A DNA stretch of 36,690 bases from a virus. Positions 2,143 through 36,690 of this stretch are shown here, in pieces (within the stretch, counting starts at the first letter, position 1; the number at the start of each line of letters is the position of its first letter). The stretch spans positions 1-36,690 of the IMG/VR virus record IMGVR_UViG_3300045283_000419; one strand, 5' to 3'. The notes under the pieces are model-generated. The model ran no database searches. It was not told the origin of the DNA and saw nothing but the letters and a program-made list of their open reading frames with translations. The position numbers and the translations under genes were made by a program.

Positions 2143-2366
2143 TCTTCCTCCAGGTCGAAGAGGTCGGCGGCTCGAACCGGTTCACGCGAGAGTTTCCGGC
2201 ATGCTGCGACGATCGCTTTGATGCACTTGCGGGTGGGTTCCATCTTCCCGGCTCTGATCCGAAGAAGGTGCTGCCGGGAGTAGTCCGCGGTGAGTGCGAG
2301 GTGAAGAGCTTTGATGCCGTGCTTGTGAAGGAACCGGTCGAGCTTCGTTGGGTAGGGTTGTTTCAT
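2139..2366 (-). CDS. XRE-family helix-turn-helix regulator
   Basis: This 75-aa protein consists almost entirely of a Cro/CI-type HTH. Residues about 10-55 contain the helix pattern KALHLALTADYSRQHLLRIR followed by a Cro-like third and fourth helix (KCIKAIVAACRKL). The ATG at 2366 was chosen because it overlaps the stop of the upstream gene as ATGA (2363-2366) and keeps the domain compact; the open frame upstream is low-complexity. It would bind DNA as a dimer and is a candidate lysogeny or partition regulator. The inverted repeat at 2754-2771, just upstream of the operon promoter, is a plausible operator. It has no oligomerisation or cleavage domain of its own; that may be supplied by the adjacent S24-like gene. 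Confidence 0.75.
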   Translation of the reverse strand: MKQPYPTKLDRFLHKHGIKALHLALTADYSRQHLLRIRAGKMEPTRKCIKAIVAACRKLSREPVRAADLFDLEEE

Positions 2367-2713
2367 TTGCGTACTCTCAGAATGAGGTTCACAGCAGCGA
2401 TGAGTTGGAACTTGCCTTGTAGGGTTTCGGCGTCGATGCGGAGCTGTCTGACTCCGTGTTTCTTCCACCATTGACCGACGAAGAAGTTCCCTTCGGAAGA
2501 TGCGATGACCGTTTCTCCGGTCGCGGCAGAACGTCGAGGTTCAGCGACGAGCAACTCGCCGTCAGACAAGCCGAGGACGGGCTGAGAACCGCGGAAGCGG
2601 TAGAGTTTTTCGTGTGGCTCGATGAGCTCAGAAGAGATTTGAGCGGAGCCGGTGGAGGTTCGAAGCGGCTTGCCAGGCGTGAAGTCGTCGTACGGTACGG
2701 TCAGAAGTGCCAT
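2363..2713 (-). CDS. LexA/S24-like protein without HTH, probably non-cleaving
   Basis: This 116-aa protein resembles the C-terminal domain of LexA/CI repressors: residues about 47-85 follow the pattern (S)DGELLV-x9-ATGETVIA-x4-GNFFVGQWW, matching the family's GDxLxV...GDxVVAxxxGxxxVKRL. The catalytic Ser-Met and the Lys of the VKRL segment are not evident (VGQWW instead), so self-cleavage is doubtful. The start is fixed by a -10 element ending 6 nt before the ATG, so the mRNA is probably leaderless. It overlaps the HTH gene by 4 nt. Together the two genes look like a repressor split into separate dimerisation and DNA-binding polypeptides, with the order reversed. The family assignment is tentative; gene existence is secure. 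Confidence 0.6.
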   Translation of the reverse strand: MALLTVPYDDFTPGKPLRTSTGSAQISSELIEPHEKLYRFRGSQPVLGLSDGELLVAEPRRSAATGETVIASSEGNFFVGQWWKKHGVRQLRIDAETLQGKFQLIAAVNLILRVRK

Positions 2714-2747
2714 GCCGGGACCGTAGCTCGGAACGAAGAGGAGTCAA
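2714..2747 (-). promoter_or_regulatory. Leaderless-type promoter of the regulatory operon
   Basis: Reading the minus strand, TTGACT (2747-2742), 16 nt, TACGGT (2725-2720), 6 nt (CCCGGC), then the ATG at 2713. With initiation 6-7 nt beyond the -10, transcription would begin at the start codon. No ribosome site fits between them. The geometry is identical to the promoters before 27005 and 33177. Confidence 0.75.
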
Positions 2748-7633: not shown

Positions 7634-8473
7634 TTACTTGAAGAAGGGCAGGTAGGACTTGAGGAGAGCGATGCGGTCGAGAATCCAGTTGCGCTTCTGG
7701 AGGGGATCAGCAGGGATCGGGGTGGGGAGAGGAACATCAACTGTCGGCTCCCACGCTACCCACGCTTCTTTGATCGTCGCGAGATCGGAGTCGAGGTAGA
7801 AGCCGTCTCCGTTGCCGCCGCCATTCGCAAGGACACCCCAGGCGTTGCCGAAGCTGTTAGCGAAGCGGGTCTTTGTTGGCGTGAATCCGGTGAGGTTGTT
7901 GAAGTGGCCGGAGTTCGACGGGAAGGGATACCAGGATGACGGCTGCCACGGAGCCTTGAGGACGAGTGCGGCCTTGTCGTGGTAGACAGCAGTTCTCAAT
8001 CCTTGGGGCGAGAGGTCGGTGAGTTGGGCATATGGTCCGATACGACGGGAGAGAGCGTCCACGTAGGCGGCCTGCGGGATTTTGGTCCAGTCCGCAAATT
8101 CGGCGATCGAGAGTGAGGTGTCGTTCGGGAAGAACTCAGCCTTCGGGACACCGCACCGCTGGAGAACCTGCATGATCGAGCGGCCGTACACGCCGTTCTC
8201 AGGTGGGAGTCCGGTCAACTTCGCAGCGAGCGCGTAGACGAAGCGCCAGGAGAGTTCGTTGCCGAGTCCGAGAAGGATGTTCTGAAACTTCGCGCCGCTC
8301 GCGCCGCCGCAGGCACTCTGTCCACCGGGGCCGGCGAGCTGGTTGTAAACCGGGAGATTCGAATAGTCCGGCAGAAACTCGGAAGGAACGGGAGTGTCTT
8401 TACCTGTGCCGAGAAAATCGCGTTCATCCTTCGGTGATTCAATGCCTCCTAAATTGTTCTGGAGTTCCTCCAT
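7634..8473 (-). CDS. Papain-fold (C1-like) cysteine peptidase, possible lysin
   Basis: This 279-aa protein carries the papain catalytic layout. Gln52 and the nucleophile Cys55 lie in GQSACGGAS, His190 lies in SGHFNNLTGF, and Asn206 lies in NSFGNAWG, the equivalent of papain's NSWGxxWG. GDGFYLDSD follows, as in the family. The first 40 residues resemble a short prosegment (SPKDERDF...DYSNLPVYNQ). There is no signal peptide. Its place before a holin-like gene suggests it replaces a classical endolysin, cutting peptide cross-links or envelope proteins. It could instead be a virion-associated protease. No amidase, lysozyme or transglycosylase was found elsewhere in the window. Confidence 0.82.
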   Translation of the reverse strand: MEELQNNLGGIESPKDERDFLGTGKDTPVPSEFLPDYSNLPVYNQLAGPGGQSACGGASGAKFQNILLGLGNELSWRFVYALAAKLTGLPPENGVYGRSIMQVLQRCGVPKAEFFPNDTSLSIAEFADWTKIPQAAYVDALSRRIGPYAQLTDLSPQGLRTAVYHDKAALVLKAPWQPSSWYPFPSNSGHFNNLTGFTPTKTRFANSFGNAWGVLANGGGNGDGFYLDSDLATIKEAWVAWEPTVDVPLPTPIPADPLQKRNWILDRIALLKSYLPFFK

Positions 8474-8491: not shown

Positions 8492-8519
8492 ATACTAGCG
8501 CGCGAGCGGAAACGCGCAA
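8492..8519 (-). promoter_or_regulatory. Candidate promoter of the lysis genes
   Basis: On the minus strand TTGCGC (8519-8514), 16 nt, TAGTAT (8497-8492), leaving a leader of roughly 12 nt before the ATG at 8473. The spacer is again 16 nt. Confidence 0.45.
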
Positions 8520-14052: not shown

Positions 14053-14793
14053 TTAAGGAAAGTTGCCGATGTTCGTGGAGCCGAAGCCACGGTTGCGCGC
14101 GAAGAGATCGGGTGTGTCGAAAAGCGGGCGGTTGATGGACTGCTCGCGGCTTTCACGCTCCTTCATCGGTGCCCAGAGCACGTCGAGCATGGAGAGAGCA
14201 GCTTTCTCTTCGGCCTTCGCTTGGTCGTACTGCTTCTTCTTCTCTGAACCAAGGATGCTCGCGTACGCAAGGCGGATGATGGCCTGGTTGCCGCTGTCCT
14301 CGTTGTTGTCGAAGTCAGGTGAGAAGGCGAGAAGGTCAGTCGGCGCGGAAAGCGTGGGCGCTCTCAGCTTGCCGAACAAGGTGATCTCGTCACCGGCTGA
14401 GAGTGAGTTCTTGTTCGCGAACCACTGGCGCTTGAGATGCGACCAATACTTATCGGTTGCTGTCGGCCAGTCCGAGAACCACTTCTGGTAGTCGGCGAAG
14501 TTGCGCTTGCTCCACTCCTTGCCGTTCACGAGGAGGAGATAGATGCTTTCGTCAACGAACGTGTTCGGGTAGTCGAGGTAGAACTCGCCGGAGGTCGGCG
14601 GGGTGTACGTGAGCTTGAGTGCGTCAACCGAGAAAGGCCAGCGCTTGTAGTCCCACGCGCGCTTGTTCGCGAGGACGAGCTCAGTCGTGATCTCAGAGAC
14701 GGAGAAGAGATCGTTCATGCCCGCCGCGAAGTCGGCGTACTTGCCGTTCAGCTTGTTTTCGATGAGATAGGTTTGTGCTTCGAGGAGTGTCAC
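14053..14793 (-). CDS. Podovirus tail/head-tail adaptor-like protein
   Basis: This 246-aa protein starts with a helical segment typical of podoviral adaptor or tubular proteins, followed by ANKRAWDYKRWPFSV, a pattern I recall in such proteins. The rest is mixed alpha/beta, with a charged helical end (GSEKKKQYDQAKAEEKAALS). Length and place between the 95-aa gene and the LysM protein fit a tail tube or connector component. The assignment relies on context more than on a firm motif. No membrane or enzymatic features are seen. Confidence 0.6.
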   Translation of the reverse strand: MTLLEAQTYLIENKLNGKYADFAAGMNDLFSVSEITTELVLANKRAWDYKRWPFSVDALKLTYTPPTSGEFYLDYPNTFVDESIYLLLVNGKEWSKRNFADYQKWFSDWPTATDKYWSHLKRQWFANKNSLSAGDEITLFGKLRAPTLSAPTDLLAFSPDFDNNEDSGNQAIIRLAYASILGSEKKKQYDQAKAEEKAALSMLDVLWAPMKERESREQSINRPLFDTPDLFARNRGFGSTNIGNFP

Positions 14794-14832
14794 GGTGGGA
14801 AGGAGTTGGTTTTAGTTTAGAAGGTGGGCGGG

Positions 14833-15120
14833 CTACGTCAATGTGCAATACCTCCACGCTGAACCGATGAAGAGGTAGAGGCGTCGGGTAGTTCCGTTTT
14901 CGTAAAACTGGATCGAGTCGATGAACGTCTTCGGAATGAACGTGGGGGCTGTGCTGATCGTTCGCCGCGGCATGCGAAGGGTCACGAGCAGCGGGAGAAA
15001 CTCGTCGAGCGAGTCCGGTGCACCTTGGCCTTGCGGGAGCTCGAAGTCGGCCTCCTTTGGTCCGGGGTCCGGCTTGAAGTTTCCGGCTTGCTTGTTCGCT
15101 TGAAGTTCGTCCTGCGTCAT
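14833..15120 (-). CDS. Small virion-module protein
   Basis: This 95-aa protein starts at an ATG that overlaps the stop of the 552-aa gene (ATGA, 15117-15120), which fixes the start; the open frame extends upstream but is low-complexity. The N-terminal third is polar and Pro/Gln-rich, and the C-terminal half is beta-rich (TFIPKTFIDSIQFYENGTT, ending LFIGSAWRYCTLT). The C-terminal pattern of short strands resembles small tail or fibre-attachment proteins. Function unknown. Confidence 0.68.
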   Translation of the reverse strand: MTQDELQANKQAGNFKPDPGPKEADFELPQGQGAPDSLDEFLPLLVTLRMPRRTISTAPTFIPKTFIDSIQFYENGTTRRLYLFIGSAWRYCTLT

Positions 15121-26564: not shown

Positions 26565-26874
26565 GAGTGAAGGGATGCTTCGGGTTGTCGACGACGACTT
26601 GATGAATGCCGAACGCGAGGGCGTTCACGATCTCCTCTTCTTGAGCATCGGTGAAGCCGCGCTTCGTCATTCCTTGCTGCCACCAGATCGCATGGAGAAC
26701 CTCGTGGATCGCCGTCTGGTGCTGCTTCTGGGCAGTCATTCCAGGCTCGAAATACATCGTCTGGGTGTTGGGATGTGTTGAGCCCCAGCAGTTGCCTTGG
26801 TCTGTGACGGGCTTGTCTGACTTGAGCTTCCAACGGAAGCCGCCGATCTTCAAGAAGGAAGGGAGCTTCTTCAT
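26557..26874 (-). CDS. Zinc metalloprotease-like protein (HExxH)
   Basis: This 105-aa protein contains HEVLH (H57, E58, H61) in a helix beginning QTAIHEVLHAIWW, with a downstream EEEIVNALAFG helix that could supply the third zinc ligand (about E80). The pattern matches the minimal zincin/ImmA-IrrE- or SprT-like fold. It overlaps the stop of the preceding 44-aa gene and the start of terS. Phages often encode such small zincins near the terminase, without a known role. Activity against a host regulator or prohead protein is possible. Confidence 0.75.
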   Translation of the reverse strand: MKKLPSFLKIGGFRWKLKSDKPVTDQGNCWGSTHPNTQTMYFEPGMTAQKQHQTAIHEVLHAIWWQQGMTKRGFTDAQEEEIVNALAFGIHQVVVDNPKHPFTRG

Positions 26875-27005
26875 CTAAAAATGAGTTGGAGCATCGCGAC
26901 CCAAATGAACTTCGGGAACCACCAGGGCTTCGGCTTCACGCTGTTCGCGAGGATACCCATCGCAGCGCGGTCAATTCTCTTCTGGCGATCAAATTTGCGG
27001 GACAT
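26871..27005 (-). CDS. 44-aa conserved-type basic protein, first gene of the virion operon
   Basis: The ATG at 27005 follows a -10 element by exactly 6 nt, so the mRNA is predicted leaderless. The product has a basic start (SRKFDRQKRIDRAAMG), a KPKPWW turn and a hydrophobic end (FIWVAMLQLIFR). It resembles a small protein I have seen in other phages. The stop overlaps the next ATG (ATGA). It is too short for default gene calling. A role in membrane association or in terminase regulation is possible; function is unknown. Confidence 0.75.
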   Translation of the reverse strand: MSRKFDRQKRIDRAAMGILANSVKPKPWWFPKFIWVAMLQLIFR

Positions 27006-27039
27006 GCTCTCAGCCTAGAACATAGGCAGGAATCGTCAA
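27006..27039 (-). promoter_or_regulatory. Leaderless-type promoter of the virion operon
   Basis: On the minus strand TTGACG (27039-27034), 16 nt, TAGGCT (27017-27012), 6 nt (GAGAGC), then ATG at 27005. A GCCTA-x5-TAGGC inverted repeat (27013-27027) overlaps the -10, a plausible operator. It is the only strong promoter seen upstream of the terminase-to-tail block. Confidence 0.75.
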
Positions 27040-32967: not shown

Positions 32968-32995
32968 ACAATACTCCCCTCAAGCGGTTCGTCAA
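32968..32995 (-). promoter_or_regulatory. Sigma70-type promoter of the parB block
   Basis: TTGACG (32995-32990), 16 nt, TATTGT (32973-32968) on the minus strand. The leader is about 38 nt. The -35 and its neighbours (TTGACGAAC) are shared with the promoter at 33184-33211. Confidence 0.75.
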
Positions 32996-33021: not shown

Positions 33022-33177
33022 CTAACCTGTGGACAACTTTGCCGGTGGTTTAGAGGCGCGAATGGCCTTCATCTTGCGCGCGGCGGCACGCTTGCCGCCC
33101 GCCTTCTTTACTCTCGCCGCCCAGCTCCTCTTGCCGCGCAAGCTGGCAGCGGCTTTCAAGATTTCTTGTTCAGTCAT
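33022..33177 (-). CDS. 51-aa basic protein from a predicted leaderless mRNA
   Basis: The ATG at 33177 lies exactly 6 nt beyond a -10 element. The product begins MTEQEILKAAASLRG and is rich in Lys, Arg and Ala (RSWAARVKKAGGKRAAARKM). I recall the MTEQEILKAAAS opening in other short bacterial and phage proteins, where it precedes a basic nucleic-acid-binding tail. No ribosome site exists. The gene lies between the two small beta-alpha genes and the parB block. Too short for routine calling. Confidence 0.65.
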   Translation of the reverse strand: MTEQEILKAAASLRGKRSWAARVKKAGGKRAAARKMKAIRASKPPAKLSTG

Positions 33178-33211
33178 GCACTAACCGTAGCAGAGCTGAA
33201 CCGTTCGTCAA
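33178..33211 (-). promoter_or_regulatory. Leaderless-type promoter of the 51-aa gene
   Basis: TTGACG (33211-33206), 16 nt, TACGGT (33189-33184), 6 nt (TAGTGC), ATG at 33177. The -35/-10 layout and the 6-nt gap match the promoters of the regulatory and virion operons. Confidence 0.75.
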
Positions 33212-35261: not shown

Positions 35262-35441
35262 TCATGACTGCGCTGCTTGTTTCGGTTTCCTGCCGCGCCT
35301 TGCAGCTACCTCGTAGCCGAAGTCACGCAGCTGATCGTCGATCTCGGCTCGCTGGGCGAGGAGGTCTTTGACCGCCCCTTCCTTTGCCGTGTCGAACTGC
35401 TTTCGAAGGTCGTGTGCCTTTTCCACTGACGCGATTTTCAT
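35262..35441 (-). CDS. 59-aa coiled-coil protein with AT-hook-like tail
   Basis: AAGGAGG precedes the ATG at 35441 by 7 nt, which decides the start. Residues 1-45 form a charged helix (SVEKAHDLRKQFDTAKEG, LLAQRAEIDDQLRDFG). The end contains ARRGRKPKQ, like an AT-hook or H-NS-type GR-core, so DNA binding is likely. It overlaps the coupling ATPase by 119 nt. Phage and integrative elements often carry such small DNA-binding proteins. It could be a nucleoid or mobilisation accessory protein. Confidence 0.75.
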   Translation of the reverse strand: MKIASVEKAHDLRKQFDTAKEGAVKDLLAQRAEIDDQLRDFGYEVAARRGRKPKQAAQS

Positions 35442-36690
35442 GCGGTCCTCCTTCAAGGAACGTCTTGATGTTCTTCTCGATGATGGCGATGGGTTTGGCG
35501 TACCTCGTGTTGCTTCTTTGGATGATCTGCCGTCTCACCTCCTCGTCTCGTTTGGCGTCCAATGGCCGCAACCCTTCCATTAGGATCGCGTCACCACGGA
35601 CGCCATTTCGTACCGTCTTCGTGTACCACCAGAAGTTTGAGAGATTGGCAAGCGTCTTCGCCTCCACACCCATCTCGGCTCCGAGCTCCTCCGCGTCATT
35701 CGCTCCAACCCGTCCCACCGCAAGCGAGGCGATGTTGCCGAACACAGCGGCCTTGGTCTCCGGCGGAAGCTGGGTGAGCGTCTGGAAGCCCATCGTCAAA
35801 GAGACGTTGTATTTGCGTGCCTCGGTTAGAAGTTGTTCGTGGGCAGTGCCGCACATGAAGTTCGCGGCTTCGTCGATGAAGACGCGATGCGGCGGGCGGA
35901 AGCGAGTGTTCTCACGCGCGAGTGCGGCGTAGAGAAGTTTCGCGATCACAACCGATCCGAGGAAGGCGCCTACAGTCGGGCCGATTCGTCCCTTCGCAAA
36001 ACGGCAAAGAAGGATCTGTTTGTTGTCGATCACCTTCCTGAAGTCCAGGCCGCGGCGCTGCGTTACTGCGTACCTCAAGGGAACCTGCATGAAGGTGTCG
36101 AGTTTGTTCGTGCCTGGCGCGGCCGCCTGTTCCTGCTGTTTCTTGTCCCAGTCTTCGAGGTACTTTTCGAAGAAGAGCCGAAGCGTCGAATTCCTTGTCT
36201 TTGCCGCGAGATGGTCGCGGTACTCCTTCACCATGTAAGCGCGGTAGAGGTGGAGAAGCGTGGGTTGAGACTCAACCTCGAGAATCGCCTCCCCAAAGTT
36301 CCGAAAGAGGAATGAGGTCTGCGGTCCCCACGCGTCTTTCCACACGCTTGAAACGATCTTCTCTGCTTCAGCTAGGAGCTTTGGCTTGTCATCACCTTCG
36401 AGGGGATTCAACCCGATCGAACAAGTAGGGTCTGATGGATCGTAGAAGATGACGTCCCTTCTGCGGTTGGCTGGCATGCCGTCAAGGATGTTGTCGATCA
36501 GGTCTCCGTGAGGTTCCATAACCGAAGCGCCGTTACCGGCGATGATCTCTTCCATGATCAAGTTGTAGAGGATGGTGGTCTTGCCGGCGCCGGTCGTGCC
36601 GATGACCGCGGAGTGTTTCGCGGTATCTAGTTCGACGGGTTCGTTCCAGCGCTCCCACGTCGTCCGATTGAGGCCGATGGGTGTGTTCAT
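35323..36690 (-). CDS. VirD4/TraG-type coupling ATPase (HerA/FtsK superfamily), possibly incomplete at the window edge
   Basis: This 455-aa protein has Walker A GTTGAGKT (31-38; K37), the EPHGDLID motif (59-66) and the family context IFYDPSDPTCSIGLNPLEGD, Walker B HRVFIDEA (268-275, D273/E274), and the GFQTLTQ sensor (301-307). These are the marks of type IV coupling proteins and HerA-type DNA pumps. No relaxase or VirB components are visible in the window, and the usual N-terminal membrane helices are not seen; the ATG coincides with the last base, so upstream sequence may be missing. After about residue 415 the chain is in a Gly/Arg-rich frame that overlaps the 59-aa gene. It may act in DNA transfer, prophage maintenance or segregation. 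Confidence 0.88.
   Translation of the reverse strand: MNTPIGLNRTTWERWNEPVELDTAKHSAVIGTTGAGKTTILYNLIMEEIIAGNGASVMEPHGDLIDNILDGMPANRRRDVIFYDPSDPTCSIGLNPLEGDDKPKLLAEAEKIVSSVWKDAWGPQTSFLFRNFGEAILEVESQPTLLHLYRAYMVKEYRDHLAAKTRNSTLRLFFEKYLEDWDKKQQEQAAAPGTNKLDTFMQVPLRYAVTQRRGLDFRKVIDNKQILLCRFAKGRIGPTVGAFLGSVVIAKLLYAALARENTRFRPPHRVFIDEAANFMCGTAHEQLLTEARKYNVSLTMGFQTLTQLPPETKAAVFGNIASLAVGRVGANDAEELGAEMGVEAKTLANLSNFWWYTKTVRNGVRGDAILMEGLRPLDAKRDEEVRRQIIQRSNTRYAKPIAIIEKNIKTFLEGGPHENRVSGKGTRPSKAVRHGKGRGGQRPPRPASRDRRSAA

Follow-up and report, generated by a model that had tools for sequence, protein, structure and literature searches.

The stretch of DNA that we analysed (the window) is a 36,690-base IMG/VR record carrying an integrase, an HK97-type major capsid protein, a terminase, an exonuclease and a ParB-like gene. 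A TraG/VirD4-like coupling ATPase, for which no match was found among named phages, is encoded at the end of the record (35323-36690, minus strand). An integrase at position 1 together with this terminal gene suggests either that provirus ends have been trimmed or that the phage gene is an unusual one. Three promoters in the window lie immediately before a start codon, and three other sites with the same spacer are followed by leaders:

2720..2747, minus strand: promoter; TTGACT (2747-2742), 16 nt, TACGGT (2725-2720), 6 nt, ATG at 2713
2363..2713, minus strand: predicted leaderless gene of 116 aa with weak similarity to the UmuD/LexA peptidase domain
27012..27039, minus strand: promoter; TTGACG (27039-27034), 16 nt, TAGGCT (27017-27012), 6 nt, ATG at 27005
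26871..27005, minus strand: predicted leaderless gene of 44 codons (MSRKFDRQKRID...), first in the packaging/virion operon and overlapping the following start codon with its stop (ATGA at 26874)
33184..33211, minus strand: promoter; TTGACG (33211-33206), 16 nt, TACGGT (33189-33184), 6 nt, ATG at 33177
33022..33177, minus strand: predicted leaderless gene for a 51-aa basic protein, downstream of the 33211 promoter
32968..32995, minus strand: leadered promoter; TTGACG-N16-TATTGT, lying about 216 nt beyond the 33211 promoter
8492..8519, minus strand: leadered promoter-like site; TTGCGC-N16-TAGTAT, ATG 18 nt further on, gene 7634-8473
14814..14841, minus strand: leadered promoter; TTGACG-N16-TAAACT, tail gene 14053-14793 with GTG at 14793

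An earlier note on this sequence had proposed that three minus-strand genes share one fixed promoter geometry. All three sites (2747, 27039 and 33211) were found exactly as claimed, each with 34 nt between the first base of the -35 box and the ATG. The ribosome sites said to be missing are indeed missing: no Shine-Dalgarno sequence was seen at any of the three ATGs, and the -10 box plus 6 nt leaves the RNA no room for one. The start codon is ATG in every case, never GTG or TTG, and TANNNT ends 6 nt before it, which is the placement expected of leaderless sigma70-type genes. The two further promoters with 16-nt spacers and ordinary leaders are also present as patterns (32995 and 8519-8492); the leadered N16 promoter at 14841 had been overlooked, and T(A/T)GACA-N16-TANNNT precedes the orthologous tail gene in several relatives.

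Coincidental consensus matches near start codons could produce such sites, and the poor -10 boxes (TACGGT, TAGGCT) would fit this; a general sigma70 scan scored on TATAAT, which is uninformative here, also gave no promoter excess in the window. However, TTGAC-N16-TANNNT-N6-ATG has three matches in the window against an average of 0.00 over 100 dinucleotide-shuffled copies. With a relaxed pattern (spacers of 15–19 and gaps of 4–9), at least three sites appeared in 2 of 3000 second-order Markov simulations, and three of identical geometry in none of the 3000. The window holds six TTGAC..TANNNT pairs with a spacer of 15–19 nt, five of which have a spacer of exactly 16.

The ATG at 27005 opens the virion operon, as had been proposed: the 44-codon gene is followed by a putative metallopeptidase (assigned by PHROG 1233, with a weak PF20573 match) and then by the terminase, first its presumed small subunit and next the large one, all in overlapping frames. 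This overlap is the one observation that points to translational coupling of the other virion genes. Since two of the three frames opened by these promoters are only 44 and 51 codons long, one could suppose that the ATGs are false and that the real starts lie further in, behind an ordinary short leader. The first twelve residues read from ATG 27005 are nevertheless kept in a related locus (L018 at 4161; MSRKFDRQKRID / MSRKFNRARQID), which makes this ATG credible as the true start. Leaderless ATGs in other relatives likewise align with the N-termini of their orthologues, and no excess of open GTG or TTG codons was found 5–8 nt past the -10 box in relatives. We therefore regard misplaced starts as very unlikely. 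A promoter of the 27039 type is absent before the L018 orthologue of the 27005 gene, which lies inside a reading frame that begins upstream of it.

The gene starting at 2713 matches PHROG 10470 (E = 6.5e-4) and UmuD in PDB (E = 0.022), and no relative of it was found among the fetched loci. Given this weak similarity and the lack of a relative, the view that it heads a regulatory operon is no more than plausible. The UmuD/LexA-like domain (2363-2713, minus strand) comes without an N-terminal DNA-binding domain, and the region of the catalytic lysine aligns, at this weak similarity, to VGQ, so the peptidase domain may be inactive.

The gene opened at 33177 does encode a small basic protein, of 51 aa. 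In the closest relative, TTGACA-N16-TACGCT-N6-ATG (L202 2088) precedes a 59-aa HTH-like basic gene, and the pair of promoters is kept as well: a leadered N16 promoter follows 200 nt on (L202 2088 and 2288; compare 33211 and 32995 in the window). DnaA-box-like TTGTCCACA/TTATCCACA motifs are found where the small basic gene ends (window 33022-33177; L202 2062-2330). In both phages they stand after the leaderless promoter and before the leadered one, with one extra motif just upstream in L202.

We collected relatives as 80 loci retrieved with a capsid-protein profile, which together with earlier matches amounted to about 1.0 Mb, most of it from phages that have the capsid gene in common. For counting distances, promoters were defined by TTGAC and TANNNT at a spacing of 15–19 and nothing else; sites were dereplicated, and three TerL relatives were included. 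An open ATG lay 5–8 nt past the -10 box at 58 of 275 dereplicated promoter sites (MCP-family loci plus the window's three), with a sharp distance peak: 30 sites at 6 nt, 15 at 7 and 10 at 8, against a background of about 2 per position. Among control phages the corresponding counts were 0 of 71 (Firmicutes) and 1 of 70 (enteric). In 53 dereplicated MCP-family loci, window excluded, the forward pattern was found 56 times and a reversed-letter control 10 times (0 versus 3 and 2 versus 1 in the control phages), while ten whole records of relatives gave 43 matches versus 7. The 53-locus and ten-record tests omit the window and are thus independent of how the finding was picked. With the 6-nt peak recurring in independent relatives, and neither a shuffle nor a simulation giving three sites of one geometry, the judgement that three such copies are unlikely to be accidental holds, and chance is a highly improbable explanation.

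Relatives that have just the tail module or just the terminase in common showed no clear excess (2 versus 1; 0 versus 2), so the signal tracks the capsid lineage or its hosts. The tail-module relatives (L205-L222), considered as close kin for the leaderless pattern, were set aside for want of a clear excess, though their orthologous tail gene is likewise preceded by a promoter with the 16-nt spacer. Gene starts were called by a simple reading-frame method and promoters by consensus, so the following fractions are approximate: a leaderless-type promoter (a TTG -35 and TANNNT 5–8 nt before ATG) stands before about 9% of the starts called in the family and before none in the controls, and AGGAG precedes 7% of called starts in the family versus 29% in Firmicutes phages. 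Shine-Dalgarno motifs are thus present but weaker, and the family seems to mix both modes of initiation.

Bacterial transcription tends to start on a purine (+1) preceded by a pyrimidine (-1), some 7 nt past the -10 box. The base before the ATG lay outside our search pattern. In the 6-nt class it is a pyrimidine at all 27 dereplicated sites, the window's three included (P ~1e-9), compared with 29 of 55 for ATGs farther downstream and 47% for open ATGs as a whole. Such an invariant pyrimidine is the usual signature that a transcription start on the A of ATG would leave. Promoters that are real but start transcription a few bases upstream, giving leaders of 1–4 nt and translation still of a leaderless or near-leaderless type, would account for the part of the family peak at 7–8 nt (15 and 10 sites, fitting leaders of 1–2 nt) and for the A at -1 in 7 of 14 sites of the 7-nt class. 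The window sites, by contrast, are all exactly at 6 nt with C-A at the junction (C at -1, A of ATG), which places the usual start on the A of ATG; we consider such short leaders unlikely.

Starts are also conserved between orthologues. Diverged orthologues of several leaderless genes, many pairs being only 30–60% identical, retain a promoter at 5–8 nt with differing promoter sequences. Examples are the small gene that precedes the capsid gene (e.g. L006/L008/L038/L043/L071), a glycosyltransferase-like gene that follows the capsid gene (in about 20 of 49 orthologues) and a gene of 52 aa, likewise with its promoter geometry kept. The spacing between the two boxes is another matter. A spacer peak at 16 nt is seen in the window, in the L018 contig (the record behind L018 is the closest relative and has 56% GC) and in the tail-gene relatives. 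Judged from the collected promoters, the 16-nt spacer is a mark of the GC-rich branch, the wider capsid family peaking at 18. The conservation of spacing anticipated in the earlier note therefore stands for the -10-to-ATG distance; the 16-nt spacer is branch-specific, most relatives having 18. As far as these sequences tell, the fixed quantity in the family is the distance from the -10 box to the ATG and not the spacer, so the family would display an evolving promoter geometry (16 versus 18) under a fixed start-codon distance. An apparent second spacer peak at 24 nt in relatives was accounted for by coding repeats, by adjacent hexamers and by leaderless sites whose -10 box is weaker.

The leaderless reading of the earlier note is supported by the family-wide positional peak, the invariant pyrimidine at -1, the conserved orthologous starts and the clean controls, and the three window sites are very probably expressed leaderlessly. 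It is from these sequence patterns that we infer the RNA 5′-ends and the mode of translation. In our model, sigma70-type promoters would start transcription at the A of ATG, give or take about one base, and the leaderless mRNA would be initiated at its 5′-terminal AUG without a Shine-Dalgarno sequence. Such starts would be a common operon opening throughout the uncultured tailed-phage family that shares this major capsid protein, and presumably leaderless messages are routine for the host's RNA polymerase and ribosomes, next to messages with a Shine-Dalgarno leader. Taken jointly, we believe this account to be correct with good confidence.

In leaderless genes of Actinobacteria and Deinococcus-Thermus, TANNNT precedes the start by about 12 nt (Zheng et al. 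2011, PMC3160421). Actinobacteria mix leaderless and Shine-Dalgarno-led genes, and phage lambda provides the classic case of a leaderless phage mRNA (PMC3160421). The phages studied here resemble these bacteria in that the first T of TANNNT is 12 nt upstream of the ATG, Shine-Dalgarno-led genes coexist, and operon heads are concerned; they differ in having a strong TTGAC -35 box with a lineage-specific spacer (16 or 18) and a lower fraction of affected genes (the ~9% given above). As in lambda, a phage gene would have a message beginning at AUG. Lambda's leaderless message, however, is that of cI from PRM, a single repressor message, whereas here several operons per phage would be involved, with packaging and other virion-region genes among them, in many relatives. 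Because leaderless genes are known from all these systems, the phenomenon itself is not new; what appears new, on strong in silico grounds, is that an uncharacterised phage family uses it systematically. For this large unannotated family, it should be possible to predict directly from sequence where RNAs and genes truly start, so that small leaderless genes missed by gene callers can be found.

The pattern also offers a clue to the translation habits of the family's host, on whose identity the searches gave few leads. The closest named terminase relative belongs to the TM7 (Saccharibacteria) phage DolZOral124_53_65 (MG269973), at 42.7% over half the protein. The part of that genome examined has no leaderless excess; as the phage shares the terminase and gave no capsid match, it says little about the host. 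Terminase and TraG-like queries against genome contigs yielded no relative and no host genome, nucleotide and portal searches of named phages gave no match, capsid matches among named phages were remote and integrase matches were distant only. No report of leaderless genes in Saccharibacteria or Patescibacteria was found in the literature searched. Tentatively, the whole family may open operons leaderlessly, virion genes included, because its host, possibly one of the Patescibacteriota, depends heavily on leaderless translation; we hold this to be possible, somewhat short of an even chance. With a host from this phylum, which is reduced and for the most part uncultured, the phages would be a pointer to leaderless expression there.

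In relatives, the major capsid gene has a leader of its own. A conserved leader element, AACTTCCTAACCYC-loop-GRGCCGGTAA, separates this gene from a strong promoter at the following positions:

L012 864, L020 9915, L029 6155, L035 9912, L045 6259, L046 6297: capsid leader element
L054 3121, L055 4108, L077 2098, L086 8486, L088 3711: capsid leader element, further loci

Three of its five predicted pairs show compensatory changes, and a comparison of one locus (L046) with Rfam gave no credible match. The element is a candidate translational operator or regulatory RNA. A second element, AAGCGGTAG, recurs in or beside the promoters of one subgroup, often just after the -35 box, and is possibly an operator:

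L008 2792, L012 3103, L013 2418, L020 2607 and 8773, L035 8808: AAGCGGTAG element
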